Shown one piece after another: positions 35,667-54,979 of a stretch of DNA of 64,000 bases. The notes under the pieces were generated by a model that saw only the letters and a program-made list of their open reading frames with translations, was not told where the DNA came from and searched no databases. Within the stretch, counting starts at the first letter, position 1. Every line of letters begins with the position of its first letter. The stretch lies in assembly GCA_021780225.1 (NCBI GenBank), contig JAJXZF010000069.1:1-64000 (forward strand), written 5' to 3'. This DNA is from Deltaproteobacteria bacterium. GTDB taxonomy: Bacteria > Desulfobacterota > Binatia > Binatales > Binataceae. A program made the position numbers and the translations under genes.

Positions 35667-37241
35667 TTGTTGACGACTCGCGCCTCGGCGGAAAACAATT
35701 CCGCTGCGGCGCGGGCGCGCGCGGATCAAAACTCAGTGGACCCCGTCATCCTCGAACGCTCAGCGCATCCCATTTCGCGCCGCGATATCGACCCGAACGT
35801 CCTCAGGGTGCTCTATCGGCTGATCAGCGCCGATTTTACCGCCTATCTGGTCGGCGGCGGCGTGCGCGACCTGATGATGCATCGGCGGCCGAAGGACTTT
35901 GACGTCGCCACCTCGGCCCATCCCAATCAGGTGCGCGAATTGTTCCGCAATTCGCGGCTGATCGGCCGGCGGTTCCGCCTCGTGCACGTCTTTTTCGGCC
36001 CGCAGAATATCGAAGTTGCGACCTTCCGCCAGCGCAGCGAAGAAGTCCCGGAAAGCGGCGACCTGATGATCCGGCAGGACAATACTTTCGGCACGCCGGA
36101 AGAGGACGCTTTTCGCCGCGATTTCACGGTCAATGCGCTGTTTTACGATCCGCGGACGTTCCAGGTTATCGATTACGTCGGCGGAGCGCCCGATCTTGAA
36201 GCGCGGTTGATTCGCACCGTCGGCGATCCCGACTTGCGGATGCGCGAGGATCCGGTGCGGATGATTCGCGCGGTGCGCTTCGCGGTCAAGTTGGGCTTCG
36301 AAATCGAACCGGCGACTCGCGCGGCGATCGAACGCCATTGCGGAGATTTGGCGAAAGCCTCCGTGCCGCGTCTGGTCGAAGAAATCTTCCGGACGCTGAT
36401 GCTGGCCGACGCCGCCCGGGCCTTGCTGCTGATGGATCGCCTGGGCTTGCTCGCGGTCCTCCTTCCGGCCATTTCCGGCCATCTCCGCGATCGGCCGGCC
36501 GCCGCCGCGATCGAACCGTCCGCGCCGCCGCTCGCGATGGAGGGTGCGCCGGTTGGCGAGCTTGCGCCGCCCGTATCCGAAGACGCCATGGATGCGATCC
36601 CTACCGCGAGAAATCTGGCCGCGATGGGCCGGGCGATCGCGGAAGGACTGGCGCCTGCGCGCGCGATGGCGCTCGCGGCGTTGTTTGCGGACCTGTTTCG
36701 CGCGCGCGGCGGCGCCGAGGCGCGGATGGAACTGATCACGGATTTGCGCCTGCGCGGCTTTTCGCGTGCGGACACCGACCAGATGCGGCTGCTGCTTGAA
36801 GCGGCCGGCCACATGATGGCGATGACGCGGATATCGCGGCGGCTGCCGCGCCGGCCGTACTATCCGGAAGCGCGCCAACTGCTCGAATGGATTGCGCCGA
36901 CGTATCGATTCGACGTCGTCACCTACGACCGATTTTTAGCCGCGCCGCCGGAGCGCATGCAGCGCCGGCGGCGCGGCGTCGCGGGCATGGCTGGCGCCGC
37001 CGCCGAAGATGGCGGCCCAGCGCCGGCCCCATCCGGCAGACGGCGCCGACGGCGCCGCGGCGGCCGACGCCATCGACGCAAACCCGCCGCCACGAACGGC
37101 GTGTCGGCCACGTCGAACGAGGCGGGCACGCCCGCGCTGTCGCGGCCCGACGCCGCGGCAGGCGCACCGGGACAAAATTCCGGAGCGGTTGCCGAATCAA
37201 CGGCATACGTTCGCAATTTCGGCGGCGAAAGCGACGAATAG
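35667..37241 (+). CDS. Poly(A) polymerase / CCA-adding nucleotidyltransferase family (PcnB-like)
   Basis: A 524-residue class II nucleotidyltransferase. YLVGGGVRDLMMHRRPKDFDVATSA is the catalytic core (the two Asp of DFD bind Mg2+), RRDFTVNALFYDP and EDPVRMIRAVRFAVKLGF follow. The C-terminal 80 residues start RRRRGVAG and hold a basic cluster (RRRRRRRGGRRHRRKP), as in PcnB RNA-binding tails. PcnB adds poly(A) to RNA 3' ends; CCA addition to tRNA is the alternative. The start at TTG 35667 is doubtful; GTG 35736 is also possible. Confidence 0.85.
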   Translation: MLTTRASAENNSAAARARADQNSVDPVILERSAHPISRRDIDPNVLRVLYRLISADFTAYLVGGGVRDLMMHRRPKDFDVATSAHPNQVRELFRNSRLIGRRFRLVHVFFGPQNIEVATFRQRSEEVPESGDLMIRQDNTFGTPEEDAFRRDFTVNALFYDPRTFQVIDYVGGAPDLEARLIRTVGDPDLRMREDPVRMIRAVRFAVKLGFEIEPATRAAIERHCGDLAKASVPRLVEEIFRTLMLADAARALLLMDRLGLLAVLLPAISGHLRDRPAAAAIEPSAPPLAMEGAPVGELAPPVSEDAMDAIPTARNLAAMGRAIAEGLAPARAMALAALFADLFRARGGAEARMELITDLRLRGFSRADTDQMRLLLEAAGHMMAMTRISRRLPRRPYYPEARQLLEWIAPTYRFDVVTYDRFLAAPPERMQRRRRGVAGMAGAAAEDGGPAPAPSGRRRRRRRGGRRHRRKPAATNGVSATSNEAGTPALSRPDAAAGAPGQNSGAVAESTAYVRNFGGESDE

Positions 37242-37338
37242 CCCGCATCGAGCCTGGGAGCCGGCCGCGGACGCCTCGCGTCAGCTTGTCCGTTCGGATT
37301 CCATCGACTAATTTCATCGGGGTGCATAAGCGGCGGTA

Positions 37339-38304
37339 ATGCGCGCCGCGCCCTATTCTTCGCGGGAGATTTCAGTTTTGGCTGCTAACAGCGTGCGCTC
37401 GGATAAGATCTGGATGGACGGCGCGATGGTCCCATACGACCAGGCCAACGTCCACGTCCTGACCCATAGCCTCCACTACGGCTTGGCCGTGTTCGAGGGG
37501 CTGCGATGCTACAAGGGCGATAACGGCGGTTCCGCGATCTTCCGCGCCAAAGAGCATATCCGCCGTTTGCTGGATTCCGCCCATATTCTGGAGATGACGA
37601 TCCCGTTCGGTCAGGAGGAGCTGGTCAAAGCCTGCGCCGACGTCGTCCGGGTCAACAAGTTCGACGAATGCTACCTGCGGCCGATCGCGTTTTACGGCGA
37701 TGGCGAGATGGGCGTCGTCGCGCGCAACAACAAGGTGCGCGTCGCGATCGCGGCGTGGCCCTGGGGCGCCTATTTGGGCGCGGACGGGCAGAGTCAGGGC
37801 GTGCGGCTCAAAACCGCGTCGTTCGTGCGGTTTCATCACAATTCGATGATGCCGATGGCCAAAACCTCGGCCAATTACGTCAATTCCGCCCTCGCCGGCT
37901 ACGAGGCGCGCAAAAACGGCTACGACGAGGCGCTGCTGCTCGATGTCAACGGTTACGTCGCCGAGGGCAGCGGCGAAAATTTCTTTATCGCGCGCGACGG
38001 CGTGGTCTATACGCCGCCCCTGATGTCGTGTCTGGCGGGAATCACGCGCGATTCGGTAATCCGGATTCTTCACGATCAGGGCGTCACGGTGAAGGAGCAG
38101 CCCTTTCCGCGCGACCTCGTCTATATCGCGGACGAGGCCTTCATGACCGGCACGGCGGCCGAGGTCACTCCGGTGCGCGAGCTTGACGATCGGCGGATCG
38201 GCGCAGGCAAGCCCGGCCCGATCACGCGCAAGGTGATCGAGGTCTTCAACGCCGCGCTTCGCGGCCGCGACCCCCGCTACCGGCAGTGGCTGTATTCGCT
38301 ATAG
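37339..38304 (+). CDS. ilvE: Branched-chain amino acid aminotransferase IlvE
   Basis: A 321-residue fold-IV PLP enzyme. DKIWMDGAMVPYDQANVHVL opens the core, GLAVFEGLRCYKG follows; the PLP lysine lies in SMMPMAKTSANYVNSALA, and EALLLDVNGYVAEGSGENFF and FMTGTAAEVTPV complete the signature. It interconverts Leu, Ile and Val with their 2-oxoacids using glutamate. ATG 37339 may be 5' of the true start, since the first 15 residues are not family-like. Confidence 0.95.
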   Translation: MRAAPYSSREISVLAANSVRSDKIWMDGAMVPYDQANVHVLTHSLHYGLAVFEGLRCYKGDNGGSAIFRAKEHIRRLLDSAHILEMTIPFGQEELVKACADVVRVNKFDECYLRPIAFYGDGEMGVVARNNKVRVAIAAWPWGAYLGADGQSQGVRLKTASFVRFHHNSMMPMAKTSANYVNSALAGYEARKNGYDEALLLDVNGYVAEGSGENFFIARDGVVYTPPLMSCLAGITRDSVIRILHDQGVTVKEQPFPRDLVYIADEAFMTGTAAEVTPVRELDDRRIGAGKPGPITRKVIEVFNAALRGRDPRYRQWLYSL

Positions 38305-38337
38305 CGCCGCGCGCCGGCGGAGCCGTATAATTTCGCG

Positions 38338-38979
38338 ATGAAACCGCGCCGCGTAGCGGCTTGCGCAATCACGATGGGACTGCTCTGGACATTGTTCGGT
38401 TTCGGTTCGGCGCGCGCCGAACTGCTCAAGGCCGGCGACGTCGCGCCGCCGTTCTCGACCCAGGCGATCGAAAACGGCCAGACCGTTCCGATTCGCCTGA
38501 GCGATTTTCTCGGCCGCAAAGTCGTCCTTTACTTCTATCCGAAGGACAACACTCCCGGATGCACCAAAGAGGCGTGCGCCTTTCGCGACGGCTACGCCAA
38601 GCTCGCCCGATGGGGTATCGCGGTGCTCGGATGCAGCGTCGATTCGGAAAGCTCGCATCGCGCCTTCCAGCAAAAGTACAAGCTGCCGTTCCCGCTGCTG
38701 CTCGATCCCGGCAAAAGTATCGCGAAAGCCTACGGCGCCGACAACGGAATCCCGATTCTCGGCCTCGACAAGCGCGTGACCTATGTTATCGGCGCCGACG
38801 GACGAATCTTGAAGGTCTATCCCAACGTCGATCCCGCGCTGCACGCCGACCAGATCATTCAGTATCTTGGCGCCAATCAGGAGCCGCCGCCTTCGCCGAC
38901 TCCGACGCTTTCGCCGGCCAACCCCGCCACTCCCGAGGCCGGCCCGCCCCGCGACAACGGCGCCGATTCGATCGAGTAG
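38338..38979 (+). CDS. Exported peroxiredoxin (BCP/PrxQ type)
   Basis: A 213-residue thioredoxin-fold peroxidase with an N-terminal signal peptide (about residues 1-27, ending SARAE). The active site YPKDNTPGCTKEACAF holds the peroxidatic Cys and a resolving Cys five residues later, as in BCP/PrxQ. The C-terminus is a Pro/Ser/Thr-rich tail of about 30 residues. It reduces peroxides with thiol donors, here probably in the periplasm, which is unusual for BCP. Confidence 0.9.
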   Translation: MKPRRVAACAITMGLLWTLFGFGSARAELLKAGDVAPPFSTQAIENGQTVPIRLSDFLGRKVVLYFYPKDNTPGCTKEACAFRDGYAKLARWGIAVLGCSVDSESSHRAFQQKYKLPFPLLLDPGKSIAKAYGADNGIPILGLDKRVTYVIGADGRILKVYPNVDPALHADQIIQYLGANQEPPPSPTPTLSPANPATPEAGPPRDNGADSIE

Positions 38980-39128
38980 TCCCGCCGGCGCTCGCCTTCA
39001 CGGCGCGCCGTCCTGATCCATTTTCGTGCATGTATGAGGCGGCATTGGTAGCCTTTGCAACACTTGGTATCGATTGGTGCGTCATAGGCGACGCGAATCG
39101 ATCGCCCGATGCAAAGGAGAACGATCGT

Positions 39129-39881
39129 ATGGATTCGTTGCGAATTGCCCGCGCCAAAGCCGGCGCAATAATGCTTCCAGCCGCGATCCTGGCGATGGCG
39201 GCGTATATCGGCGGATGCGCTCGGACCGTCGCGAATCAGTCCGCGGTCGTCGAGCAGGTCCAGACGGGCCAGGCCCCCGCCGTCACCGGATTTTTCGGCC
39301 AGTCGGCTTCGCTGCTGCAGCCGGGCGGCGAGGGCAAAGCGGCGCTGGTTTACATCAATCCCAACGTCGATTGGAAGCAGTACACGAAAATCATGATCGA
39401 TCCGGTGCAGTTCTGGGACAGCGACAACAGCGGCGTTTCGCTCTCCGACCAGCAGACCCTGACCACCTACGCCTACAACAAGCTCACCGAGGACCTGTCG
39501 AAGAATTTCACTTTGGTGAACCAGCCCGGTCCGGGCGTGATGCGCCTGCAGGTCGCGCTGGTCAACGCCGCCGCGGCTACTCCCGGCCTGCGTTCGGTAT
39601 CGGTGGTTATTCCGCAGTTGCGGGTGCTCAACGCCGCCCAATCGCTCGCGACCGGCAGCTACGCCTTTGTCGGATCGGCGCAGGCGGAGATGAAGGCGAC
39701 CGACTCGGCCACCGGCCAACTGCTGGCGGGTGCGGTCGATCAGCGCGCCGGCGGCGTCTCGCTCAGTTCCGCGGCGACCTGGAAATGGGGCGACGCCGAG
39801 GCCGCGATCGACTACTGGGCGCAGCGGATTTCGGACCGCCTGCTCGAATTGCAGGGGCGCGCTCCCGCCGCCTCTTCCTGA
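39129..39881 (+). CDS. DUF3313 family lipoprotein
   Basis: A 250-residue protein with a type II signal: basic start, hydrophobic helix, then AAYIGGC as lipobox. The mature part (YINPNVDWKQYTKIMIDPV, LTTYAYNKLTEDLSKNF, QRISDRLLEL) matches DUF3313. Such lipoproteins sit at the envelope; their role is unknown. ATG 39129 follows GGAGAACG. Confidence 0.85.
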   Translation: MDSLRIARAKAGAIMLPAAILAMAAYIGGCARTVANQSAVVEQVQTGQAPAVTGFFGQSASLLQPGGEGKAALVYINPNVDWKQYTKIMIDPVQFWDSDNSGVSLSDQQTLTTYAYNKLTEDLSKNFTLVNQPGPGVMRLQVALVNAAAATPGLRSVSVVIPQLRVLNAAQSLATGSYAFVGSAQAEMKATDSATGQLLAGAVDQRAGGVSLSSAATWKWGDAEAAIDYWAQRISDRLLELQGRAPAASS

Positions 39882-40063
39882 GCGGCGCGCCCGCGCTTAC
39901 GACGCTTTGCGCCGCCGCGCGCGGCCCGCCTCCGTGCGGAACATCACAACGGGTTGTTGGGGAAAATCCGGCCGAGCGGGAAGCGTCCGACTTCGGACCC
40001 GAGCGCGGCGACATACCAGCAATTTTTCAGAAACATCAGGTGGCTCCCAAACCGCCAATCAGC

Positions 40064-40537
40064 TTAGGAGCCGGCCCAATCGCTCGCAAGGCGCCGTTCT
40101 GCCGTTTCCTTGCGTCCCTTCAAGATACCGTGAAGGCGCGGCGCTAGATTACCCAGTGCGGTGCGGCGGATCTCGCACTCCCAAATTGTATGCACGCGCC
40201 AGCCGAGCCGCCGCAAAGCGCGTTCGTTCCGCTTGTCGCGTTTTTGATTCCCCTCGATTTTGGCGGACCAATAAGTTCGATTATCGTGCGGCAAACGGCC
40301 CTTAAGGCATCGATGACCATGCCAGAAACAACCCTTCACTTGGATGATCGTGCGGTGCTTCGGAAGCACGATATCGGGGCGGCCCGGAAGCGCGCTGACG
40401 TGCAGCCGAAACCGGTAGCCCATCGCGTGGAGGGCGCGCCGCGCCGCTAATTCTGGCTTGGTATTCTTAGCTCGGATTAATGACATGACCTCCGAGCGTT
40501 TTTGCTTCGTGAAGACGTCGCGGCCTCGGCCTCTCAA
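40064..40537 (-). CDS. vsr: Very short patch repair endonuclease (Vsr), second copy
   Basis: A 157-residue Vsr enzyme: RSEVMSLIRAKNTKPELAARR, MGYRFRL, LPGRPDIVLPKHRTIIQVKG, CFWHGHRC, and IWECEIRR near the end. It is only moderately similar to the Vsr at 11794, so it is not a recent duplicate. It overlaps the upstream HNH gene by four bases (ATGA). No cytosine methyltransferase is adjacent, which is odd since Vsr repairs deaminated 5-methylcytosine. Confidence 0.92.
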   Translation of the reverse strand: MRGRGRDVFTKQKRSEVMSLIRAKNTKPELAARRALHAMGYRFRLHVSALPGRPDIVLPKHRTIIQVKGCFWHGHRCLKGRLPHDNRTYWSAKIEGNQKRDKRNERALRRLGWRVHTIWECEIRRTALGNLAPRLHGILKGRKETAERRLASDWAGS

Positions 40538-40908
40538 ACTTCGTCCGGAAATTTTTGCCGAAGCTGGTTAAAAATTGACCATTGATCCTCAAATGCAGCA
40601 TTATCGACCATCGAAATCAGGGTAGCTAGATTGACGAATCTCGGCAAAGGAACGGAACGAAAGCCTTCAAAACAGTCGGTGCATTCTGTTCTTAGGTTGT
40701 CGAGAATATTCATCGCCGATCGCGGCCGTCGCGCGATATATCCTATATTCAACACTACTCGTCTTGCTGTATGGAAAACGCTCGGATCTCCTTCATTCGC
40801 ACCGCAAACGCGACAGGTGAATCCGTCGCGCGCGAAAACGAGTCCGGATAATTGATTGAATTTCCGCTTTCCGATAGAAGGCCTGACGGGACGAGGTAAT
40901 TTTCGCAT
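40534..40908 (-). CDS. HNH-like endonuclease with degenerate active site
   Basis: A 124-residue protein: FARDGFTCRVCGANEGD gives one CxxC, NLRTECTDCFEGF the second. This is the zinc-finger HNH layout common in restriction loci. The expected His residues between them are replaced (VVLNIGYIARR), so catalysis is doubtful. The C-terminal helix (FEDQWSIFNQLRQKF) also fits the restriction-associated HNH group. It overlaps vsr and follows a small gene by 43 bp. Confidence 0.65.
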   Translation of the reverse strand: MRKLPRPVRPSIGKRKFNQLSGLVFARDGFTCRVCGANEGDPSVFHTARRVVLNIGYIARRPRSAMNILDNLRTECTDCFEGFRSVPLPRFVNLATLISMVDNAAFEDQWSIFNQLRQKFPDEV

Positions 40909-40951
40909 AGGGTGCCGAAATTATCAAAACGCTGGCTAATTAGAGCGATTG

Positions 40952-41173
40952 TCAATCTTGAAAATATTTCTCTAAGATTTGTTTTAATTGTGTCAATCCT
41001 CGTGGTGAAAATCGAATCGATTGACTGACCTTTCCAGGTATTTTGCGAGATTTAGATCCGTAAGTATCAAGTTGAAGGAATTTGATACCATCCGCCATCT
41101 GAATAATCGAATAGGTACACTCCGCATCGGTATGGTGCGTATCCTTCTCGAGAACTTTTAATTTTATCTCATT
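40952..41173 (-). CDS. Small beta-rich protein of a restriction locus, start unclear
   Basis: A reading frame ending at TGA 40952-40954 encodes about 73 residues: EIKLKVLEKDTHH, CTYSIIQMADGIKFLQLDTY, GSKSRKIPGKVSQSIRFSP and LKQILEKYF. The QLDTYGS...GKVSQSI pattern recalls a small protein found next to HNH and Vsr genes in restriction loci; this is from memory, not a search. No ATG, GTG or TTG lies in frame before the core; the upstream codons read ATT-ATA-AAT. Either a rare start is used or the gene is damaged. A+T-rich. Confidence 0.5.
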   Translation of the reverse strand, partial: NEIKLKVLEKDTHHTDAECTYSIIQMADGIKFLQLDTYGSKSRKIPGKVSQSIRFSPRGLTQLKQILEKYFQD

Positions 41174-41437
41174 TATAATTGCCGCCTGCGTCTCGCTCGC
41201 TGCCTGATGTTCGATCGGATTTTGTCAGATTAATCTTAATTAACCTGTCGCATTGATCGGGAGTCGGCAGTTATTCCCTATGAATTTTCATAATGTAAGT
41301 AGCCGACCAAAGCAGATTAATTGGATTGTAACAAAAAGTAAACGCTTTATCTTTTGCGAAGCAGATTCGGCAAAATCGATGATATGTAAGCCAAACTTGC
41401 CGCCGAAGCAGTACTTTTATAGTAAGGCGGAAATAAT
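41174..41437. other. A+T-rich gap left of the attachment site
   Basis: Much more A+T-rich than the chromosome on either side. I see no gene in it. It probably belonged to the restriction locus or an older insertion at the same tRNA. Together with the att fragment and 41483-41738, this makes 565 bp without a confident gene. Confidence 0.5.
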
Positions 41438-41482
41438 TGGAGCGGGCGACCGGGGTCGAACCGGCGACGTCCAGCTTGGGAA
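41438..41482 (-). other. Attachment site: 45-nt 3' fragment of tRNA-Gly(CCC)
   Basis: Read on the minus strand this is the 3' part of a tRNA-Gly: anticodon loop TTCCCAA (anticodon CCC), 3' anticodon strand GCTGG, variable loop, T arm with TTCGACC loop, acceptor strand CGCCCGC, discriminator T and encoded CCA (41438-41440). The match to a tRNA stops exactly after the anticodon loop; the partner strand and D arm are missing. Such fragments are the duplicated core left by tyrosine integrases. The missing 5' part lies to the right, so the element extends rightward. Confidence 0.88.
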
Positions 41483-41780
41483 CTCCTCTGATGCCGGGAA
41501 CGCGGAGGAACCCAAGTGATGAAAACCCTTGCGGCACAAGGCGTTCCCGCATTTTCGGCTTCCCGGCTAGGAACCGCATTTCCCGCCTTTTCCCGCCGAG
41601 TTTGCCAGAATTTTGCCAGAAAATTTGATCGCCCCGACCTCCACGTTCCCGAGTTCATAGATCAGGACACGGCGCGAGGTTGGATTCGGCGCGCGCTTCG
41701 CCTTTCCCTTCCCATCACCAACTTGCTTTCGAGTCGTCGTGCGCGATTCGGAGAAGCCCAGCGTCCTGATGGAGACGGCT

Positions 41781-42446
41781 ATGGACGGTAGCGTTTACGC
41801 CAAAGCGCGTCGGGAATGGGATGACCGCTACGCCGATCTGGTTCTCGGCAAGCGCAACTGGCAGGTCGCGGCGACCGGGCTGCTGGTGCTCTCGCTGGTG
41901 CTGGCCTTCGGACTGGTTCGGATCAGCACGCGCAGCAGATTCGTTCCTTACATCGTACGGGTCGATGGCCTGGGTTACGCGCTGGCCGCTCCCACGGCGC
42001 TCGGCGAGAGCGGCGCGCAGTTAACCACCGAAAGGATGATGCGTTACGAACTCGCGGGCTTCATCCGCGACACGCGCGAGGTGATCGCCGACCCGCAGGC
42101 GGAGCACCAGGTGATTGGCGAGGTCTACAGCCGGGTACGCGGTGCCGCCTACAAGTTCCTCGAGAACTACTACCACGACCAAGATCTTGCCCACGATCCG
42201 TTCAAGGTCGCGCAACATCGCACCGTCACCGTCCAGATCGATTCGATCCTGAAGCTGTCCGACACAACATGGCAGGTCCGCTGGACGGAGCTGGCGCTCG
42301 GCCTGGATGGAGCGCCGGTCGCGACCACGCATTGGGAGACCGTGCTCGACACGGAGATGGCGCCGCAGACGTCCGACGCCTCGATTCTCGACAACCCGCT
42401 CGGCTTTTACGTGACCCGGATCAGTTGGACGGAGCAACGAAGCTGA
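41781..42446 (+). CDS. trbF: Conjugal transfer protein TrbF (VirB8-like)
   Basis: A 221-residue inner-membrane protein with a single N-terminal helix (GLLVLSLVLAFGLV). The opening YAKARREWDDRYADLV and the periplasmic domain (TTERMMRYELAGFIRDTREV, YVTRISWTEQ) match TrbF. VirB8 proteins scaffold the inner-membrane complex. ATG 41781 has GGAG at good spacing; ATG 41769 and GTG 41739 are alternatives. First gene of the trb/tra block. Confidence 0.9.
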   Translation: MDGSVYAKARREWDDRYADLVLGKRNWQVAATGLLVLSLVLAFGLVRISTRSRFVPYIVRVDGLGYALAAPTALGESGAQLTTERMMRYELAGFIRDTREVIADPQAEHQVIGEVYSRVRGAAYKFLENYYHDQDLAHDPFKVAQHRTVTVQIDSILKLSDTTWQVRWTELALGLDGAPVATTHWETVLDTEMAPQTSDASILDNPLGFYVTRISWTEQRS

Positions 42447-42458: not shown

Positions 42459-43397
42459 ATGCGAGAGAAGATTACGACCTTCGGTATCGCGCTCGCGCTC
42501 GGGTTGGGCGGATGCGCTTCGCAACAGCCGCCTCCGCCGCCTCTAACCCTCGTAACCCACGCCGCGCCGAAGGCGGAGACGGCGCCCGCGCCGGTAACCG
42601 GCGCGAAGCTTCTCGACGAGCAGCCGCCCGAAGTCAGACAAGCGGTCGCGGAGCACGACAAGACCGGAGCGTGGCCGTCGTACACCACGCCGGCATACGT
42701 GCTCTATCCCTACGGCGAAGTTGCCGAGCCGCTCATCAACTGCGCGCCGCTGCGCACCACCGATATCCAGCTTGAGCCGGGCGAGACCATCACCGACGTG
42801 GCGCTGGGCGACAGCGAGCGCTGGATGGTGACGCCGGCCTCCTCGGGCGATCCGCGCAACCCGACGCCGCACCTTGCGGTCAAGCCCAAGGCGGCAGGCA
42901 TCGCGAGCAACCTGACGATCTACACGACCCGCCACATCTATCACCTGAATCTGCGCTCGCGGCCCGGCCACGAGATGCAGGAGGTCGAGTTCTACTATCC
43001 CGACGATCTGCTTGCCGCGATGGCGCAGGCGGACCAACAGGCCAAGCAAGCGAGCGAGGATGCAAAGGCCGACGATCCGGCGGTGACGCCGCTCGCCTCG
43101 CTCGATCCGGGAGACCTGAACTTCTCGTACAAGGTCGCCGGGCCGAACGTGCCGTGGAAGCCGGTGCGCGCGTTCGACGACGGCAGCCACGTCTACATCC
43201 AGATGCCGGTTGGCATGAAGTCGAGCGAAGCGCCCGCCCTCCTGATCGCGGCGGGCGACGGCAACGAAATGGTCAACTACCGCGTGCGCGGCGACTACTA
43301 CGTGGTCGACCGTCTGTTCGACCAGGCGGTGCTGGTCTCCGGCGTGGGACGCGCGCAGGACCGCGTGCAGATCGCGTACACAGGCGCTGCGAGGTGA
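42459..43397 (+). CDS. trbG: Conjugal transfer protein TrbG (VirB9-like)
   Basis: A 312-residue protein with a lipoprotein signal (LALGLGGC). The core YPYGEVAEPLINCAPLRTTDIQLEPGE, read in pieces, the HLAVKPKAAGIASNLTIYTT block and the C-terminal VYIQMPVG region define TrbG/VirB9. It builds the outer-membrane core with TrbI and TrbF. GGAGGA precedes ATG 42459. Confidence 0.93.
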   Translation: MREKITTFGIALALGLGGCASQQPPPPPLTLVTHAAPKAETAPAPVTGAKLLDEQPPEVRQAVAEHDKTGAWPSYTTPAYVLYPYGEVAEPLINCAPLRTTDIQLEPGETITDVALGDSERWMVTPASSGDPRNPTPHLAVKPKAAGIASNLTIYTTRHIYHLNLRSRPGHEMQEVEFYYPDDLLAAMAQADQQAKQASEDAKADDPAVTPLASLDPGDLNFSYKVAGPNVPWKPVRAFDDGSHVYIQMPVGMKSSEAPALLIAAGDGNEMVNYRVRGDYYVVDRLFDQAVLVSGVGRAQDRVQIAYTGAAR

Positions 43398-43400: not shown

Positions 43401-44532
43401 ATGGCGGCGACTCTGAAAGCGGTTCAGCAGACGCAGCGTCACGGCGGCGGCCGGCTTACGCGGACACTGGTTATCACGGTTGGAGCGGTACTAGGCGGGT
43501 CGTTGCTGGCGATGATGTTGGCGCTCCATTCCGCGTCGCAGCCGGTCGCGAGCGGAACGCTCAAGGATCAAGCGGTCGCGATTCCCGACATGGCGCGTCG
43601 GCATGCAGTGGCGGAGCTCGAAGCCGACGCAAAGCCGGTCACGATGCCGACGGCGGCTCCAGTGCCAGCGCTTCCCGCGCCTCCAGTAGTCGCGCGCCAG
43701 AACAATCCCGTCGCCAGACCGCCGAGCCGGCTCGCCGAGCTTGAGCAAGACGAATTCATCAAGGCGCTCGGCGCGCCACAGATGGTCGAGTCGTTCCACA
43801 ACCGCGCGCTCGACATCCCGAGTGTGCAGGCCGCGGCGGCCGGACTTTCAGGCATCCAGCAGGCGAGCAGCGATGTTGCTCCGGCAAGCCTGAAGCCGGC
43901 GCCATCGCCTTACACGGTAACCGCAGGCAGCGTGTCCGGCCGTGTTGGTCAGCGGCATCGATTCCGATCTTCCCGGCCCGGTCCTCGGGCAAGTGCGCGA
44001 GAACGTCTTCGACAGCGCGAGCGGCAGGTTCCTGCTCATCCCGCAGGGCACGCGGCTCATCGGCGCGTACCAAGCCGCACCGGCGTCCGGGCAAAGCCGC
44101 GTGCAGATCGCATGGCAGCGGCTGGTCTTTCCCGACGCGTCGAGTATGGATTTGCCGCGGATGCCGGGCGCCGACAGCGCCGGCTACTCGGGCTTCACCG
44201 ACGAAGTTGATCATCACTATCTGCGCACCTTCGGCACGGCGACGCTACTCAGCCTCATCAGCGCGGGGCAGATGGTGGGACAGATGGGCGCGTTCGGCGG
44301 CGGCTACGGCTTCGCGGGACCGATGGGCTACGGCTATGCGGCACCGAGCCAATGGGCGCTGATGGGCGAGATGGGCGGTTCGGCGGCATCCTCGCAGATG
44401 GGAGCGGTCGGGCAGCAGGCGCTCCAGCAAGGCATGAACAGTTCGCCGACGATCGATATTCGGCCGGGCTACCAGTTCAACGTGATGGTGACGCAGGATC
44501 TGGTGCTGCCCGGAGCGTACCGAGGCGATTAA
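43401..44532 (+). pseudogene. trbI: TrbI (VirB10-like), frameshifted
   Basis: The first frame gives a membrane helix (LVITVGAVLGGSLLAMMLAL), a Pro-rich periplasmic stretch and PYTVTAGSV. TrbI proteins continue with IPAVLVSGIDSDLPGPV, but LVSGIDSDLPGPVLGQVREN and the whole C-terminal barrel are in the +1 frame from about 43942 to TAA 44532. Seven bases (43935-43941) stand where nine are expected, so two bases appear deleted. Read in frame 1 the product would end in junk at 44210. If real, the outer-membrane pore is lost; assembly error is possible. Confidence 0.85.
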
Positions 44533-44567
44533 CCGAATCTCTGGAGTTCAGGAAAGGAGCGAGTCGC

Positions 44568-44855
44568 ATGAAGCTCAAACTGAAAGACAAAGAACCGCCT
44601 CCGGCGCAGCTCAGGCTGACGCTGCCCGGCAACTTCAAGGCGTTAATGGACGAGTATCTGCTCTACTTGCGCGACACGTCGCAGCGCGAGGCGGAGTTGA
44701 AGGAGGTCGCGCTTGAGATGTTGCGCCAGTTCGTCGAGACGGATCGGGATTTCAGGACGTGGCGGAAAGGACGGGCGGAGTCGGAGGTTCGCGGAGTGGA
44801 GAGCGGCGTGGTGGTGGAGCGGCAGAACGGGGCGGTTGGGGCGAAAGTGTCGTAG
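44568..44855 (+). CDS. DUF2274 protein, T4SS-associated
   Basis: A 95-residue soluble helical protein (LRLTLPGNFKALMDEYLLYL, ELKEVALEMLRQFVETDRDF). This small gene regularly follows trbI in integrative elements. Role unknown. AGGAG precedes ATG 44568. Confidence 0.75.
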   Translation: MKLKLKDKEPPPAQLRLTLPGNFKALMDEYLLYLRDTSQREAELKEVALEMLRQFVETDRDFRTWRKGRAESEVRGVESGVVVERQNGAVGAKVS

Positions 44856-44892
44856 GGCAAGATAAAGGCTTCCTCGTACCGTGGTGGTCAAA

Positions 44893-45492
44893 ATGGCTGT
44901 TTTGCCGCAAAAACACTTAACTTTTTCGCCCCGTACCGCGCAAAGCGCGCCCCGTACTTTTCTGCCCGTTCTGCCGCTTGTGCTGGAAGTGCTGCTGGCT
45001 GCGCCGATTCTGGCCTTCCGGCTGCTCAATCTACGCATCGCGTTCACCGGCAGCGCGTGCCCACCGGGCATCTACCGCGCGACCGCACTGCCGCCGGGAG
45101 ACACACTGGCGCGCGGGGAATTGGTTCTGGTCTGCCTGCCGGAAAGGCTGGCGCGCTTCGCGCTCGAACGCGGCTACCTCGCGCGCGGCGCGGGTTGTGG
45201 CGACGGCATCGAGCCGGTAGGCAAACGGATCGGCGCGATCCCAGACGACGTCGTCGCCGTCGCGCCGGGTCACGTCGCAGTCGATGGCCAGCGACTTCCC
45301 AACAGCACAAGCCGCATGCGCGACAGCCAAGGCCGAACTGTTCCGCACGTCGCGTTCGGAACGCATGCGGTCAAGCCGGGCGAGGTCTGGCTGTTCGGCG
45401 AAGCGGACGCGCGAAGCTGGGACTCGCGCTATTTCGGCGCGGTGCCGACAAGCGCGGTGCAGGCGAAACTCAAACCGGTGATCACCTGGTGA
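44893..45492 (+). CDS. traF: TraF-type signal peptidase of the conjugation system (S26)
   Basis: A 199-residue S26 peptidase. One N-terminal membrane helix (VLPLVLEVLLAAPILAF), then FTGSACPPGIYRA with the catalytic Ser, and GKRIGAIPDDVVAV with the catalytic Lys. TraF cyclises the TrbC pilin in RP4-like systems, removing C-terminal residues. ATG 44893 is used; GTG 44881 is possible. The four bases to the next gene suggest an operon. Confidence 0.88.
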   Translation: MAVLPQKHLTFSPRTAQSAPRTFLPVLPLVLEVLLAAPILAFRLLNLRIAFTGSACPPGIYRATALPPGDTLARGELVLVCLPERLARFALERGYLARGAGCGDGIEPVGKRIGAIPDDVVAVAPGHVAVDGQRLPNSTSRMRDSQGRTVPHVAFGTHAVKPGEVWLFGEADARSWDSRYFGAVPTSAVQAKLKPVITW

Positions 45493-45495: not shown

Positions 45496-45888
45496 ATGGC
45501 TGACGGATTACATACTCGCGAGCAGGGGCTCAGGCTCCATCACCTCGCCAACCTTGGCGGCCTCGTCGCGCTCGCCGGACTCGATCGCGAGCCGCCCGAT
45601 TTGCTGCTTGGAGCGTTGCTCCGGATGGCCGCGAGCCTGACCGAACTTCCGGAACGCAGGCGCGCCGAGATCGCATCGCTCGGCCATCAGAAGTTCGACG
45701 AGCGCGCGAGCGCCAAGCGCGCGTGGAAGTCATGGGCGCGGGCCAATCAGCTTCACAATCTCACCCTGTCCGACGCGCAGATTCAGCGCATCGTCGTGGC
45801 GCTCGGCGGAGCGAAAAAGGCGGGCGGCGGTGAACGGCTCTACCGGCAGATGCTGGCGCTGCTCGACGGGAGGGCGGCCAATGAATGA
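45496..45888 (+). CDS. TraD-like relaxosome accessory protein
   Basis: A 130-residue protein with the small-TraD motif LGGLVALAGLDREPPDLLLG, common directly before relaxase genes in these elements. It is probably a relaxosome DNA-binding factor. It ends in the first codons of the relaxase gene (8-base overlap). Confidence 0.75.
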   Translation: MADGLHTREQGLRLHHLANLGGLVALAGLDREPPDLLLGALLRMAASLTELPERRRAEIASLGHQKFDERASAKRAWKSWARANQLHNLTLSDAQIQRIVVALGGAKKAGGGERLYRQMLALLDGRAANE

Positions 45889-47440
45889 TCTGCTGCGCAG
45901 CGATCTGTGGATGCGCCCGCATCCGGCGGGCGTGCGCAGCGAGCGCCATCCGCACGGACCGAGGTTTTGGTGGACCGGGCTGGGCAAGCGCGGCGCGCGA
46001 TCATTCCGCCAGGCCGGCCGGCTCAACACGCAACTCGACCGGCGCGGCGCAATTACGGCCGGCCAACCGCGCGCCTATATGCAGCGCAGCGTGGTGAAGG
46101 TTTCATACTCGCGCAACACCAAGTCGGCGTCGTGGGCGGCACACGGGCGATATTTGGCCCGCGACGGCGCACAGCGCCAGGGCGAGAAGGGACTCGGCTT
46201 CAACGGCGACCGCGACGATCTCAACCTCGCCAAACTGCTCGGCGAGTGGCAGAAGGCCGGAGACGAACGGCTCTTCCGCGTCATCGTCTCGCCGGAGAAC
46301 GGCGCCCGGCTCGATTTGCGCGAGCACGCGCGCGAACTGGCCGCGCAGATGGAGCGCGACCTGAACACAAAGCTTGAGTGGGCGGCGATCGACCATCACA
46401 ACACCGACAATCCGCATCTCCACCTCCTCATCCGCGGACGCGACGAGCAGGGCCGGCCGCTGTCGATCGATCGCGGCTACATCCAGTCGGGCATCCGCAC
46501 TCGAAGCGCCGAGATCGCCAGCCGCGAGCTTGGACTGCGCTGCGAGCGCGACTTGCTCAAGGCGCGCGGAGCCGCAGTTCGCCGCGAGCAGTTCACCGAG
46601 ATCGACCGCGACCTTCTGCGCCGCGCGGGCGCGAAGCATGTCGTCAGCTTCGACGGCAGGCAGCCGCGCGGTGACGCGGCGCGCGAGCGGCGGGCGCAAG
46701 AAATCGCGCGGCTCAAGTTCCTGGGTCGTATGGGCCTTGCCCGCAAGATCGACTCGGCAAGCTGGAAGCTCGCGCCGAATCTGGAGCGCACGCTTCGTGA
46801 GCGCCAGCTCGCCATCGACATCATCAAGAGCCGCGCGCGCCATCGCGACCAGATGCTCGATAAGCGCGCGCCGCTGGCCGTCACGAAACTCGCGCCCGGC
46901 CAGGAGCTAACCGGGCGCGTGGTCGGAACGGGCCTCGAGAACGAGACGCGCGACCGCCGCTACCTGATGCTCGAAGCGACCGACGGCAAGCTCCACTACC
47001 TGCAGCAGACGCCGGCAATCATCCGCGCGCGCGGCGAGGGAAAGATCGCCGCCGGCGAGGTCGTCACACTCGAAGGGCGCGAGTTCGACAAGGACGCGCG
47101 CAAAGTCCGTTACATCCGCGTCGAGCAGCACGGCGCGCTGCGCTCGATGCAGACGGACAAGCAGATCGGCAACCGGCTCGACCTTGAGACGCTCAAGACC
47201 ATCGAGCGCGACGGCAGGATCGATTCGCATGGCTGGAAAGGGTTTGCCGGCAAGTGGCGGCAGGCGATGAACGACCGCGTGCCGGTGCTGGAGCAGGCCG
47301 GGCTAATCGTCCGCAATCACTCCGCCAGCCGCGATTACTTCGTGCCGCCCGGAGCGGAGCAGAAACTTCGCGCCGAGATCGCGGCGCGCGAGCAGCGCGA
47401 ACACAAGCGACAACAACACGGAAAGGAGCGTACACGCTGA
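45881..47440 (+). CDS. Relaxase (VirD2/TraI-like, DUF3363)
   Basis: A 519-residue relaxase. The N-terminal part carries VSYSRNTKSASWAAHGRYLARD, a histidine cluster DHHNTDNPHLHLLIRG (the metal-binding HxH) and GRPLSIDRGYI. The C-terminal half is the DUF3363 region (LKFLGRMGLARKIDSASWKL, WKGFAGKWRQAM). It nicks oriT and pilots the strand into the recipient. No oriT was recognised by eye. The stop overlaps the traG start (TGATG). Confidence 0.92.
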   Translation: MNDLLRSDLWMRPHPAGVRSERHPHGPRFWWTGLGKRGARSFRQAGRLNTQLDRRGAITAGQPRAYMQRSVVKVSYSRNTKSASWAAHGRYLARDGAQRQGEKGLGFNGDRDDLNLAKLLGEWQKAGDERLFRVIVSPENGARLDLREHARELAAQMERDLNTKLEWAAIDHHNTDNPHLHLLIRGRDEQGRPLSIDRGYIQSGIRTRSAEIASRELGLRCERDLLKARGAAVRREQFTEIDRDLLRRAGAKHVVSFDGRQPRGDAARERRAQEIARLKFLGRMGLARKIDSASWKLAPNLERTLRERQLAIDIIKSRARHRDQMLDKRAPLAVTKLAPGQELTGRVVGTGLENETRDRRYLMLEATDGKLHYLQQTPAIIRARGEGKIAAGEVVTLEGREFDKDARKVRYIRVEQHGALRSMQTDKQIGNRLDLETLKTIERDGRIDSHGWKGFAGKWRQAMNDRVPVLEQAGLIVRNHSASRDYFVPPGAEQKLRAEIAAREQREHKRQQHGKERTR

Positions 47441-49350
47441 TGGCTGCAACATCTCTACCGTACCGGCCGCCGGGTAATCCGGCGCAAAATAAGATAACGG
47501 CGGTCGTCGCCGTCACGGCCGGGCTGATCGCCTTTCTGGCGCTGTGGACGGCCACCCAGAGAGCCGCCGCGATGCTCGGCTACGCGACCCCTCTCGGCCA
47601 ACCGGTCGCGACGCTCCCTCTATTCGGACCGCTTTACGCCCCATGGGCGATCCTGCTGTGGGCTTGGAAGTGGCGCGACGCCGGCGAGGCAAGTGCGGTA
47701 TTCGCCAGCGCCATGCGGCTCTTCGAGTACCCGTCGATCGCGGCGGCGCTGCTGGCGATGGGCGCGGCGCGGCTGGTCCGTGGAATTTCGCCGCGCATCC
47801 ACGACCTGCACGGTTCCGCCCATTGGATCACCAACCGGGAGGTTAAGGCCACCGCCCTTCTGAACAACGATGGCGTCTACCTCGGCACGTGGAACGGCAA
47901 GTTTCTTCGCCACGGGGGCTCCGAGCACGTACTCGCGTTCGCTCCGAGTCGCAGCGGCAAAGGCGTCGGTCTTGTGATTCCTACGCTTTTGACCTGGCCG
48001 GACAACGTCATGGTCCACGACATCAAGTGCGAGAACTGGGAGAAAACCGCCGGCTGGCGCCAGCACCAACTCGGAAGCCTGTGTCTCAGATTCGACCCGA
48101 CCTGCACTGACGGAACCGCGGCCCGTTTCAATCCTCTTGCCGAAGTCCGCACCGGTCCGCTGGAAGTGAAGGACGCTCAGAACATCGCCGACATTCTGAT
48201 CGATCCCGCAGGAAATACGCCGCGCGACCACTGGGACCTGACCGGCCACGACCTGCTGGTGGGAGTGATCCTCCACGTCATCTACGCCGAATCGAACAAG
48301 ACGCTGGCCGGATGTCTCAACTTCCTCAACCCGCCGGACCGCGACCAGGAGACCGTTCTCCGCTCGATGATCGATACGCGCCTGAGCCACCAGCTCACCC
48401 ACGAGGTCGTCGCGGGAGCCGCGCAGGCGGTCCTGAGCAAAGCCCCCAACGAGCGCGCGTCGGTGCTGAGCACGGCGACGCGATGTCTCTCGCTCTACCG
48501 GGATCCAATCGTGGTCGCGAACACCGCAGAATCCGACTTCGCGGTGAAGGATCTGATCTCGCACGAGCGGCTCATAAGCCTCTATCTGACCGTTCCGCCT
48601 TCCGATCTGGCGCGCACTCGACCGCTGATGCGGCTGATTCTCGCGCAGACCGTCCAGCGGCTGATGGAGCGTCCGCCCGGGCGAGACGACGGCCGCGCTA
48701 CGCGCCGCCTCCTGCTCATGCTCGACGAGTTTCCGGCGCTGGGACGATTGGACTTCCTGCAGACGGCCCTGTCCTACGCCGCCGGCTACGGCATTAAGGC
48801 GTATCTGATCGCGCAGGACCTGAGCCAGCTCTACGCCGCGTACGGACACGATGAGTCGATCATCAGCAATTGCAAGGTGCGCGTGGCGTACACGCCCAAC
48901 AAGATCGAGACGGCGCGCCTCGTCTCCGAGATGGCCGGCGTCACCACCGTGCATCACGAACACCGCACGCGCTCTTCAAACGGGACGACGGTCTCCGAGC
49001 CGGCGATGCGCCGTCCCCTGCTGACGCCCGACGAGGTGATGCGCCTGCCAGAAGACGCGGCCCTCGTCTTCGTCGCAGGGCATGCGCCGATCTATGCGAA
49101 CAAGCTTCGCTATTACGAGAATGCCGAACTGAGCGCGCGATCCGGCATTGCGGCCCCCGTCCACTCGGACCGAATCGAGCACGGGCATCAAGCCCAAGAA
49201 CCGCCAAAGTCCCTCATCACGAACGGCAACGGCACAGATGCAAACGGCACGAACGGAAATGGAGCAGTGTCTCACGCCGACCAGGGCGGAGGCGGCGCCC
49301 GCGAGCGGGATAAGGGCAACGAGCTTACCAAGGAGTGGCCGTTCAAGTGA
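47440..49350 (+). CDS. traG: Coupling ATPase TraG (VirD4-like)
   Basis: A 636-residue T4CP. Two N-terminal membrane helices, Walker A FAPSRSGKGVGLVIPT, Walker B RRLLLMLDEFPALGRLDFLQ, and SLYLTVPPSDLARTRPLMRL and YLIAQDLSQLY between and after. It links the relaxosome to the secretion channel. A low-complexity Asn/Gly/Thr tail (NGNGTDANGTNGNG) ends it. Start ATG 47440. Confidence 0.95.
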   Translation: MAATSLPYRPPGNPAQNKITAVVAVTAGLIAFLALWTATQRAAAMLGYATPLGQPVATLPLFGPLYAPWAILLWAWKWRDAGEASAVFASAMRLFEYPSIAAALLAMGAARLVRGISPRIHDLHGSAHWITNREVKATALLNNDGVYLGTWNGKFLRHGGSEHVLAFAPSRSGKGVGLVIPTLLTWPDNVMVHDIKCENWEKTAGWRQHQLGSLCLRFDPTCTDGTAARFNPLAEVRTGPLEVKDAQNIADILIDPAGNTPRDHWDLTGHDLLVGVILHVIYAESNKTLAGCLNFLNPPDRDQETVLRSMIDTRLSHQLTHEVVAGAAQAVLSKAPNERASVLSTATRCLSLYRDPIVVANTAESDFAVKDLISHERLISLYLTVPPSDLARTRPLMRLILAQTVQRLMERPPGRDDGRATRRLLLMLDEFPALGRLDFLQTALSYAAGYGIKAYLIAQDLSQLYAAYGHDESIISNCKVRVAYTPNKIETARLVSEMAGVTTVHHEHRTRSSNGTTVSEPAMRRPLLTPDEVMRLPEDAALVFVAGHAPIYANKLRYYENAELSARSGIAAPVHSDRIEHGHQAQEPPKSLITNGNGTDANGTNGNGAVSHADQGGGGARERDKGNELTKEWPFK

Positions 49351-49859
49351 GAAAGCCCGCACACGAAGTCTCCTGCTACTTGACGCAGGCCGAGGCCAGA
49401 GAGCTGCGGGAAGAGGCCGCCGCGCGCCATCTCTCGCTGTCGCGCCACCTGCGCCAATGCCTGCTCCACTACCGCGCGCTCAGCGCCGGGGCGGACGGCG
49501 GGATGCGGCAGCTTTCGATCGCGCTCTCCGACATTGAGGCCCGCCTCGCGCGCAGCGTCGAGACGCAGAGCAAACGGATAAGCGCGCTCTATCGCGAGCA
49601 ACAAGTGCTGTTCGCCATGATTGACCGGCTCGCCTTCATTCTCTCCGTACATACGCCGGAAGTTCCCGACGAGCTGCGCAACGCCGCGCTGGCTGCCGGC
49701 ACGCGGCTCTACAATCACTGGCGCAGCGCCGTGATGGAGATGACGGAAGGCGGCGCGTCGCTCGACTCTCTCAACCGGGTCAATGGATCCGCCGCGGAAC
49801 CGGCGGAACAGGAGGAAGCGGATGAGCCTGCAGGCGATTCAATCGACGCGGCTCGATGA
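49335..49859 (+). CDS. Ribbon-helix-helix-like conjugation accessory protein
   Basis: A 174-residue protein. The N-terminus (VSCYLTQAEARELREEAAAR, then HLSLSRHLRQCL) fits a ribbon-helix-helix DNA-binding fold; a helical region and an acidic tail follow. A gene of this kind often lies between traG and trbB. It may be a local repressor or relaxosome factor. The start overlaps traG, and its 3' end overlaps trbB by 38 bases. Confidence 0.6.
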   Translation: MAVQVRKPAHEVSCYLTQAEARELREEAAARHLSLSRHLRQCLLHYRALSAGADGGMRQLSIALSDIEARLARSVETQSKRISALYREQQVLFAMIDRLAFILSVHTPEVPDELRNAALAAGTRLYNHWRSAVMEMTEGGASLDSLNRVNGSAAEPAEQEEADEPAGDSIDAAR

Positions 49860-50781
49860 ACGGCTCCGCCGCGAGCTGGGCCCGGCGGTGCTCGCCGCGC
49901 TCGACGATCCCGACGTGATCGAGATCATCCTTAACCCCGACGGCCGCCTCTGGGTGGAGTCGCATAGTCATGGAATGCACGCGACCCAAATAACCATGCC
50001 AGCCGTTCAGGCCGAACGGCTCATCGGCACGGTCGCTTTTGCGCTTCACACCGTCGCCAACGACGCGCATCCGGTCATCGAATGCGAGCTGCCGCTCGAT
50101 GGGAGCCGCTTCACCGGTTGGCTCCCGCCGGTAGCCAGCGCCCCGGCTTTCGTGATCCGCAAGCACGCCCGCCTCATCCATACGCTGGGGAATTATGTGC
50201 GCGATCGAATCATAACAGCCGCGCAGGCCGATGCGTTCCGCGACGCGATCGCGGCCCGCGAGAACATCGTGCTGGCTGGCGGCACCGGCTCGGGCAAGAC
50301 CACGCTCGCCAACGCACTCATTCACGAGATGGTCGACGCCAGCGGCGAGAGCGAGCGCTTCATCATTATCGAAGACACTCGCGAGCTTCAGTGCGATGCG
50401 TCCAACGTGATGCAGCTTCACACCTCGGCCGCAGCCGATCTCACCTTTCTCACCCGCACCACGATGCGCGCGCGGCCCGACCGGATCATTATCGGCGAGG
50501 TCCGCGGGGCCGAAGCTCTTGGACTGCTCAAGGCCTGGAATACAGGTCACCCCGGCGGCGTCACCACCGTGCACTCCAACGGAGCCGCGGCGGCGCTGGT
50601 CAGGCTTTCGAGCCTCGTCCAGGAAGCCAACGTCCCACCGCAGCCGGAACTGATCGCCGAGACCGTCCATCTGCTCGCCTTTATAGCCCGCACGCCCAAT
50701 GGCCGGCGCGTCACCCAAATGGCCCGCGTCGTCGGCTACGATTCGTCTCACGGCTTCAAACTCACCCCGCTGGAGGGCTAA
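49822..50781 (+). CDS. trbB: Conjugal transfer ATPase TrbB (VirB11-like)
   Basis: A 319-residue secretion ATPase. Walker A LAGGTGSGKTTLANAL, the Asp box IIEDTRELQC, Walker B RPDRIIIGEVRGAEAL and the His box HPGGVTTVHSN are all intact. It energises pilus assembly from the cytoplasm. ATG 49822, after GAGGAAGC, is preferred. Confidence 0.95.
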   Translation: MSLQAIQSTRLDERLRRELGPAVLAALDDPDVIEIILNPDGRLWVESHSHGMHATQITMPAVQAERLIGTVAFALHTVANDAHPVIECELPLDGSRFTGWLPPVASAPAFVIRKHARLIHTLGNYVRDRIITAAQADAFRDAIAARENIVLAGGTGSGKTTLANALIHEMVDASGESERFIIIEDTRELQCDASNVMQLHTSAAADLTFLTRTTMRARPDRIIIGEVRGAEALGLLKAWNTGHPGGVTTVHSNGAAAALVRLSSLVQEANVPPQPELIAETVHLLAFIARTPNGRRVTQMARVVGYDSSHGFKLTPLEG

Positions 50782-50960: not shown

Positions 50961-50989
50961 CCGAGAATTTCAAAAAGGAGGCGTGCAAA

Positions 50990-51334
50990 ATGCCGCACCC
51001 GAGAATCTTTTCGAAATTCGCGAAGTGGATCAGATGGATCGCGTACGCATACGGGGTCGTCACGATAGCGTGGCCGGCGCAGGCGCTGGCCACCACCGGC
51101 ATCGGCGTCCTGCCGTGGGACCAGGCGCTCAACACCATCCAGATGGATATGCAGGGCACCGTCGCCCACGCCGCGACCACCATCGCGGTCATCGCGGCCG
51201 GCCTCACCTGGACTTTCACCGAGCATGGCACCGGCGCGCGCAAGATGTCGGCGGTCGCGCTGGGCGGCGCCGGCGCGCTCGGCGCAACCCAGCTCATGCT
51301 GGCGCTCTTCCCCTTCGCGCCGGCGATCCTCTGA
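50990..51334 (+). CDS. trbC: Pilin TrbC (VirB2-like)
   Basis: A 114-residue pilin precursor with a long signal (WIAYAYGVVTIAWPAQALA) and two hydrophobic helices (AATTIAVIAAGLTWTF and AVALGGAGALGATQLMLALF). AAAGGAGG precedes ATG 50990. The neighbouring traF peptidase may cyclise it. Its stop overlaps the trbD ATG by one base (TGATG). Confidence 0.9.
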   Translation: MPHPRIFSKFAKWIRWIAYAYGVVTIAWPAQALATTGIGVLPWDQALNTIQMDMQGTVAHAATTIAVIAAGLTWTFTEHGTGARKMSAVALGGAGALGATQLMLALFPFAPAIL

Positions 51335-51660
51335 TGGACCTGCAACGCACGCCGATCCATCAGTCGCTGGTCCGGCCAATCCTGCTGGCCGGCGCCGAGC
51401 GGCGGCTCGCGATCCTCAACTGGCTCTTCATGGCCGCCCTCATCTTCGGCGTCGGGCTTCATCTCTACACGCTCGCGCTGGCGACGCTGCTCGGCACGGT
51501 CGGCCACTGGGGACTCAGGCAGGCGGCCAAGTTCGACCCGCAACTCAGCGAAGTCTATGTCCGCCATCTCCACTACCAGCGTTTCTACCCGCCGCGCGCA
51601 GAGGTGACGGCGCGAGCCGCGCCGATCCATCCGGCGGTTCCGCAAATCCGAAGGTACTGA
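51334..51660 (+). CDS. trbD: TrbD (VirB3-like)
   Basis: A 108-residue inner-membrane protein: TPIHQSLVRPILLAGAERRL opening and paired hydrophobic helices (FMAALIFGVGLHLYTLALA). VirB3 proteins partner the VirB4 ATPase, whose gene follows after three bases. Confidence 0.9.
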   Translation: MDLQRTPIHQSLVRPILLAGAERRLAILNWLFMAALIFGVGLHLYTLALATLLGTVGHWGLRQAAKFDPQLSEVYVRHLHYQRFYPPRAEVTARAAPIHPAVPQIRRY

Positions 51661-54222: not shown

Positions 54223-54979
54223 ATTTGTGTTGCGGGTAGGCTGCGCGCTGCTCGTGTTGTTGTGTCTGCTATTCGTCACACCGCGCGCCGCTCACGCGCA
54301 GTTCGGCGGCACGCAGACCGTGTTCGATCCGGCGATGTTCGCGCGCCAGTTTCAGCAGCTCCAGCAGGAGACCCAGGCGGTCGCCGCCGAAGCGCAGCAA
54401 CTCCAGTACATGATCAAGAACACCACCGGCGGGTCCGCCGGCGTATGGCAATCGGACCAATCGATGCTCGACGAACTCGGCGGCCTCATTCAGCAGCAGG
54501 GCGGCCTGTCTTACTCGCTCGGTAATCTGCAGGCGCAATTCCAACAGCATTTTCCCGGCTACGCCGTCCCGCAGAACCCGGACCAGCAGGAAGCGCAGAA
54601 CATCGCGACGACGCTGAATACCCTTAACGGTACGCTGGCAGACGCCCAGGGGCAGGCGCAGAATTTTGCCAATGAGCAGGCCCAATTCGCCGAACTGGAG
54701 GGCATGAACCGAACCGCAACTGGACGCTTGCAGGCGATCCAGGTCGGCAACGAAATCGCCTTGCAGCAAGCGCAGCAGATTCAGATGCTCCGGCAGTTGG
54801 TTGTCGCGATGATCAACGCCCAGAACGTCGCCGCCGCCAATCGCATCAACGGCCAGGCGGCCGAGGACGCCTCGGTCCAGCGCTGGCTCAGCGCCGGGCC
54901 AACCGTTCCGTTTTCCTCCACCATGCCCGACAATGGGCTGACCAGTTTCGGCTCGCCGCCAGGTGGAGGACCGCAATGA
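54206..54979 (+). CDS. trbJ: TrbJ (VirB5-like)
   Basis: A 257-residue secreted protein with signal peptide (LLVLLCLLFVTPRAAHA) and Gln-rich helices (FARQFQQLQQETQAVAAEAQ, LQQAQQIQMLRQLVVAMINA). The C-terminus carries PFSSTMPDNGLTSFG (54908-54952), shared with the next gene. ATG 54206 follows AAGGAGC. VirB5 proteins sit at the pilus tip. Confidence 0.88.
   Translation: MERSREFVLRVGCALLVLLCLLFVTPRAAHAQFGGTQTVFDPAMFARQFQQLQQETQAVAAEAQQLQYMIKNTTGGSAGVWQSDQSMLDELGGLIQQQGGLSYSLGNLQAQFQQHFPGYAVPQNPDQQEAQNIATTLNTLNGTLADAQGQAQNFANEQAQFAELEGMNRTATGRLQAIQVGNEIALQQAQQIQMLRQLVVAMINAQNVAAANRINGQAAEDASVQRWLSAGPTVPFSSTMPDNGLTSFGSPPGGGPQ

Follow-up and report, generated by a model that had tools for sequence, protein, structure and literature searches.

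The 45 bases at positions 41,438 to 41,482 of the window, the 64,000-base stretch of DNA analysed here, are almost certainly the attR core of an integrative and conjugative element (ICE) inserted in tRNA-Gly(CCC) by a tyrosine integrase. Four observations carry this assignment: the tRNA fragment itself, an empty site in a relative (G003), a set of conjugation genes beside the fragment, and both ends of a related element in a second relative (G007).

The minus-strand reading of 41,438–41,482 is TTCCCAAGCTGGACGTCGCCGGTTCGACCCCGGTCGCCCGCTCCA. It spans the whole anticodon loop TTCCCAA (anticodon CCC) through to the 3' CCA and accounts for 45 of the gene's 75 bases. The first-pass annotation had described a minus-strand 3' part of tRNA-Gly(CCC) at this place, and the exact identity over 45 bases bears that out, since the intact tRNA-Gly(CCC) genes of relatives terminate in the same 45 bases. 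In intact genes these are preceded by CCAGC, the other arm of the anticodon stem, whereas in the window they are preceded by unrelated sequence; the identity therefore goes no further than the loop's 5' edge. The fragment has a single match within the window at up to three mismatches. At the same stringency, a search of 96 relatives found it in 57 genomes, the window's own genome being counted among the 57, and ARAGORN called an intact tRNA-Gly(CCC) at 21 of the 29 loci fetched from this search and no tRNA at the other eight. Over the window ARAGORN called no tRNA, and there is no intact copy of tRNA-Gly(CCC) in it. Rfam gave no match between 40,500 and 42,500 at E ≤ 1, as expected when only a fragment of the 71-position model is present. 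The features of the window are collected in Table 1.

Table 1. Features at and around the tRNA-Gly(CCC) fragment, in window coordinates
Feature	Coordinates	Strand	Basis
Chromosomal genes: poly(A) polymerase head, aminotransferase IV, AhpC/TSA, further ORF	35,667–39,881	+	Order same in G003 and G004
vsr-like endonuclease gene, chromosomal flank, downstream of 124-aa ORF	40,064–40,537	−	Pfam Vsr 3.2e-29
Chromosomal 124-aa ORF downstream of tRNA	40,534–40,908	−	G003 homologue at same place after intact tRNA; tblastn 57%/122 aa
attR core (very probable): displaced 3' part of tRNA-Gly(CCC), anticodon loop to CCA	41,438–41,482	−	Exact 45-base identity to relatives' intact genes
Predicted: 12 codons and stop (N-S-S-D-A-G-N-A-E-E-P-K-stop), in relatives' integrase read-through frame	41,481–41,519	+	Inferred
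trbF (VirB8-like), first gene of element, 256 bp from core	41,739–42,446	+	Pfam VirB8 6.8e-43
trbG (VirB9/CagX)	42,459–43,397	+	TIGR02775 over cut-off
trbI, split over two frames	43,401–44,532	+	Single frame in G007
DUF2274 gene	44,352–44,855	+	Domain match
TraF-like S26 signal peptidase	44,881–45,492	+	Domain match
TraD-like (PF06412)	45,496–45,888	+	Domain match
Relaxase, RlxS-like	45,830–47,440	+	Below RlxS cut-off
TraG coupling protein	47,254–49,350	+	Pfam T4SS-DNA_transf 2.1e-102
trbB (VirB11-type ATPase)	49,783–50,781	+	TIGR02782 over cut-off
VirB3/TrbD-like	50,983–51,660	+	Domain match
trbE (VirB4)	51,664–54,222	+	Domain match
trbJ-like	54,146–54,979	+	TIGR02780 just below cut-off
trbL (VirB6)	55,330–56,424	+	Domain match
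Cargo: TIR protein, then short prokaryotic Argonaute	59,518–62,669	+	Domain match

An uninterrupted site, which the first-pass annotation had proposed seeking in a relative, was found in G003, a genome of the same genus. Here an intact tRNA-Gly(CCC) (L087:3776-3850) is followed by homologues of the window's left flank. When the reverse complement of window 39,700–41,482 was aligned to G003 (blastn), the core matched the tRNA 3' half at 91% identity, followed in order by pieces of 71% over 894 bp, starting 140 bp past the tRNA, 87% over 142 bp, and 93% over 192 bp, the last falling at the next chromosomal gene of G003. Between the 87% and 93% pieces G003 has an extra ~4.1 kb with ORFs that were named, by eye, as Rieske-type and nitrile hydratase-like. 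No match in G003 was detectable for the 118 bp immediately beyond the core (flank 45 to 163), and of the vsr-like gene only ~31 of the first codons were found there by tblastn. The genes upstream of the G003 tRNA-Gly(CCC) are found in the window's genome (G000) on C95, a contig of 3,537 bases that ends before the predicted tRNA, 280 bp short on the G003 scale and 230 bp on the G004 scale. With these upstream genes on C95 and the left flank in the window, the element sits between the two. Together with the relaxase, coupling protein and T4SS genes to the right of the fragment, this arrangement upholds the proposed polarity, chromosome left and element right. An intact tRNA-Gly(CCC) directly left of 41,438 in relatives had been named as a finding that would speak against the boundary; the relatives' intact tRNA lies instead at the fragment's own place.

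G000 (118 contigs, 96.9% complete) contains the 45 bases once. It has 39 detected tRNAs, with the Gly anticodons TCC and GCC present and CCC absent, so the intact CCC gene is most likely unassembled. The contig of the window, C53, is 81,932 bases long, of which the window is the first 64,000, and it stops inside the element. No tRNA was found in C53:60001-80000 and no tRNA match is listed anywhere on C53. No integrase domain was found on this contig, and at E ≤ 1e-70 nothing in G000 as a whole was homologous to the G007 integrase. The final 200 bp at the right end of C53 matched the rest of G000 only in short chance pieces. The missing full tRNA copy is thus attributed to an assembly gap, in which the intact tRNA-Gly(CCC) of G000 most likely sits. 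We infer that the window element has an integrase and a restored tRNA of its own, and, from its sequence, that it would be able to excise and transfer.

Both ends of an element of this kind are present in G007, a genome of the same family as G000. A 436-aa tyrosine integrase frame abuts an intact tRNA-Gly(CCC) at C25:154621-154695, and conjugation genes at the other end of C25 have the same order as in the window and are 69–95% identical. C25 stops within the core, and it overlaps by exactly 107 bases with C4, which carries the 45-bp fragment and chromosome. This overlap joins both ends of one G007 element, which measures ~43.7 kb from core to core. The expectation of an intact tRNA-Gly(CCC) and an integrase at the far end is therefore confirmed in this relative only, the window's own far end being unassembled.

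Right of the fragment, a relaxase, a coupling protein and a T4SS gene set are all present, as in an ICE. The relaxase scores 253 bits against the RlxS NCBIfam cut-off of 850, below what defines a Tn4371-like relaxase, and a NikA-like ORF between TraG and trbB falls below the Pfam cut-off. The frameshift in trbI, near 43,940, may be a mutation or an assembly error, and this copy of the element may be defective. Gene order was compared with that of a yardstick plasmid, NZ_CP032314 (trbB-C-D-E-J-K-L-F-G-H-I). In the element, by comparison, trbFGI lead at the edge and trbL comes last, an order with which G007 agrees; it is as if the attachment site and cargo lay between trbL and trbF. Past the window end the cargo continues with helicases and a methylase resembling DruE, DrmMI and DpdE/DrmD, which are putatively defence-like, and with a HigB toxin gene.

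Of the 148 genomes of the class, 22 have TrbF homologues (E ≤ 1e-40); G000 itself has three copies, on C53, C100 and C98. tRNA halves were sought up to 1.5 kb upstream of trbF at the 30 loci of this search, and at 10 of them one lies within ~350 bp. These are a Gly(CCC) half in the window and in G007 (where it is cut by the contig end), an Arg(CCT) half at L178, L184 and L196 (read from the sequence, not an ARAGORN call), an Ala half at L182 and L188, a Lys half at L186, and a Ser(GCT) 5' half at L173 and L194. L177 has an Arg(CCT) half ~1 kb from trbF, L199 a weak tRNA-like match, and four further loci have one or both halves of a Thr tRNA at ~1–1.2 kb. No tRNA half was found at the remaining 14 of the 30 loci, one of which offered just 321 bp of sequence. 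The window's element family uses several tRNAs. This variety of targets and the position of trbF at the edge are less ordinary features, as is an integrase frame that in relatives crosses the attachment site.

Several related copies were encountered in these genomes. In G015 (L095, L097), two cores with trbF pieces lie on one contig and another trbF piece with a core on a second, as if several elements had piled up at a single tRNA. G004 has a 31-codon trbF remnant 144 bp after an intact tRNA-Gly(CCC), at a contig end (L086:17414-17863), apparently the scar of a lost element. A second family element in G000, on C100 (L221), is bounded by an orphan 5' half of tRNA-Ser(GCT), and the intact tRNA-Ser(GCT) on C103 (L222) has broken integrase pieces directly upstream; insertion of this element would sever the tRNA from its original upstream DNA. 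When an uninterrupted tRNA-Ser(GCT) site was sought for it, the upstream sequence on C100 matched none of the five fetched loci. The third copy in G000, on C98 (L202, C98:120000-139900), is degraded. Its traG is mostly missing, matching of its trbE stops at residue 343, exactly at the start of an integrase-like frame, and a tRNA-Ser-like 5'-half piece lies at C98:137917.

The insertion that we propose would have begun with recombination by a tyrosine integrase within the anticodon loop of tRNA-Gly(CCC). The element would have brought a tRNA 3' half of its own, with which the gene would have been rebuilt at the far end, next to the integrase. The 3' half that originally belonged to the host would have been displaced to the trbF end, where it would now separate the element on the right from the chromosome on the left. 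It is improbable that the fragment is instead the scar of an older, unrelated insertion, with the conjugation genes belonging to another element that merely abuts it. The tandem remnants at the same tRNA in G015, with their several cores and trbF pieces, and the G004 remnant past an intact tRNA are what such a history might leave. However, the trbF-to-core spacing is the same 256 bp in the window and in G015, the same junction recurs in G007, and the sequence immediately inward of the core is conserved in the window, G015 and G007.

Two further explanations have a negligible probability. The 45 bases could resemble a tRNA by chance, or be a degenerate tRNA unconnected with mobility, in keeping with the lack of a tRNA call by ARAGORN or Rfam. 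Yet the 45 bases are exact and end sharply at the anticodon loop, 100 dinucleotide shuffles yielded no match to them, and the empty site in G003 refutes this explanation. The polarity could also be the reverse, with the element left of the fragment and the chromosome right. An AT-rich left flank bearing a vsr gene that is not present in full in G003 would fit such an arrangement, but it is refuted by the alignment of that flank to the G003 chromosome after the tRNA. The trb genes lie to the right, and the orientation of a 3' fragment places the chromosome on its 3' side. Insertion of a conjugative element in tRNA-Gly(CCC), extending rightward from the core, is the reading that we retain.

In G007 the integrase frame continues across the core, in antisense to the tRNA, and reaches a stop after six further codons. 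Among 12 integrase loci found in the 148 genomes, six read through a core or tRNA: L208, L217 and L218 with tRNA-Gly, L209 with the core but without a tRNA, and L210 and L212 in sense with tRNA-Ser. At L216 and L219 the integrase stops and a sense-oriented 3' fragment follows, while at the other four it stops with no tRNA recognised. In the elements at tRNA-Gly(CCC) on G002:C6 and G035:C112, the integrase adjoins the displaced fragment. Placement of the integrase opposite the fragment, as had been predicted, is therefore seen in G007 with exceptions at two of the 12 loci, and is a family trait, not a rule.

The frame in which the relatives' integrase crosses the core goes on for 12 codons at the window's attR, to a stop at 41,517–41,519; in the circular form these codons are predicted to close the integrase gene. 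Over the 41 codons that precede the core, integrase frames have a dN/dS of ~0.18–0.35 in six pairs among G007, G035 (two copies) and a G017 remnant; for G007 against G035:C223, dN is 0.06 and dS 0.27. The G015 pairs cover 24 codons, and one of them, G015 against G035:C164, has the values reversed (dN 0.14, dS 0.06). All of these comparisons involve small counts. At the second G017 core an integrase frame is absent, and the pairs that include it have dN and dS near or above 1 and look unrelated. We raise tentatively, as something possible but rather unlikely, that the integrase gene crosses its own attachment site, that its C-terminus would report the integrated or free state, and that the clade would insert in either orientation to the tRNA. 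In the circle, the integrase would end with ~12 codons, now stranded beside trbF. After insertion these would be swapped for six, read antisense from the restored tRNA-Gly(CCC). Sister elements would target tRNA-Ser(GCT) from the 5' side, and the tRNA would thereby be separated from the DNA upstream of it.

Two features of the putative tail were considered and rejected. A terminator after the stop is unsupported: nine attR tails were folded, with z-scores of −0.87 to +0.83, and the three terminator-like sites in 40,900–41,800, against 1.1 expected, include no plus-strand hairpin just after the stop. Conservation of the tail at the protein level is likewise unsupported, as the tails of close relatives are similar, yet so is the DNA beyond the stop. 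Changes between the window and C100 tails are spread across all codon positions (by eye). The core with a non-tRNA base after it occurs in 47 stretches of genome_contigs (48 matches); their tails differ widely, and most lack a long open frame into the core. In viral_contigs there is one such stretch.

The kind of system described here is already known, a textbook tRNA-targeting conjugative element. In an uncultured lineage, the analysis fixes one end of a conjugative element of more than 40 kb whose cargo includes an Argonaute/TIR pair and further defence-like genes, and it assigns the missing far end to one specific assembly gap. Sister elements can be delimited by means of the trbF-at-edge signature and the half-tRNA cores. 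If true, the integrase tail swap would add a tRNA-based example to the state-dependent integrase already described for Mx8. Elements of the ICEclc family are conjugative and target tRNA-Gly, with a shorter repeat and another T4SS class; the target is shared, but the P-type Trb genes found here speak against membership. Tn4371-like ICEs have an RlxS relaxase, TraG and Trb genes, typically with a non-tRNA target and an unbroken trb block. An RlxS-like relaxase, TraG and Trb genes are shared with them, whereas the element here begins with trbFGI-DUF2274 at its edge and its relaxase scores under the RlxS cut-off.

Islander describes a restored tRNA and a displaced 3' fragment as the marks of an island's two ends (PMC4383910). 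Its Table 1 gives a 3' fragment in 3,760 of 3,919 islands and an anticodon-centred site in 2,083; both 3' and 5' fragments are listed, and some integrases extend across attP (PMC4383910). The window element would have the same signature, except that its two ends would lie on different contigs and its host lineage is uncultured. A tRNA end fragment lies at one boundary in the window; an intact cognate tRNA at the other boundary, in the same orientation, and an integrase gene within the island are found in G007, the window's own copies being unassembled. The uninterrupted site in G003 adds to what Islander asks for. Mycobacteriophage attB/attP sites, as described, share a 30–45 bp common core with the tRNA 3' half, and the tRNA is rebuilt at one junction (PMC10865867). 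The core in the window is like these, theirs belonging to phages and this one to a conjugative element. For the integrase of phage Mx8 and for rumA-integrated streptococcal ICEs, an attachment site in the integrase gene is reported, and insertion alters the C-terminus (PMC6070905, PMC4701971). In Mx8, 112 residues are exchanged for 13 (PMC4701971), whereas here ~12 would be exchanged for six, with a new end read antisense from the tRNA and known from relatives only. In the window's family the integrase end would be altered, not necessarily disrupted.
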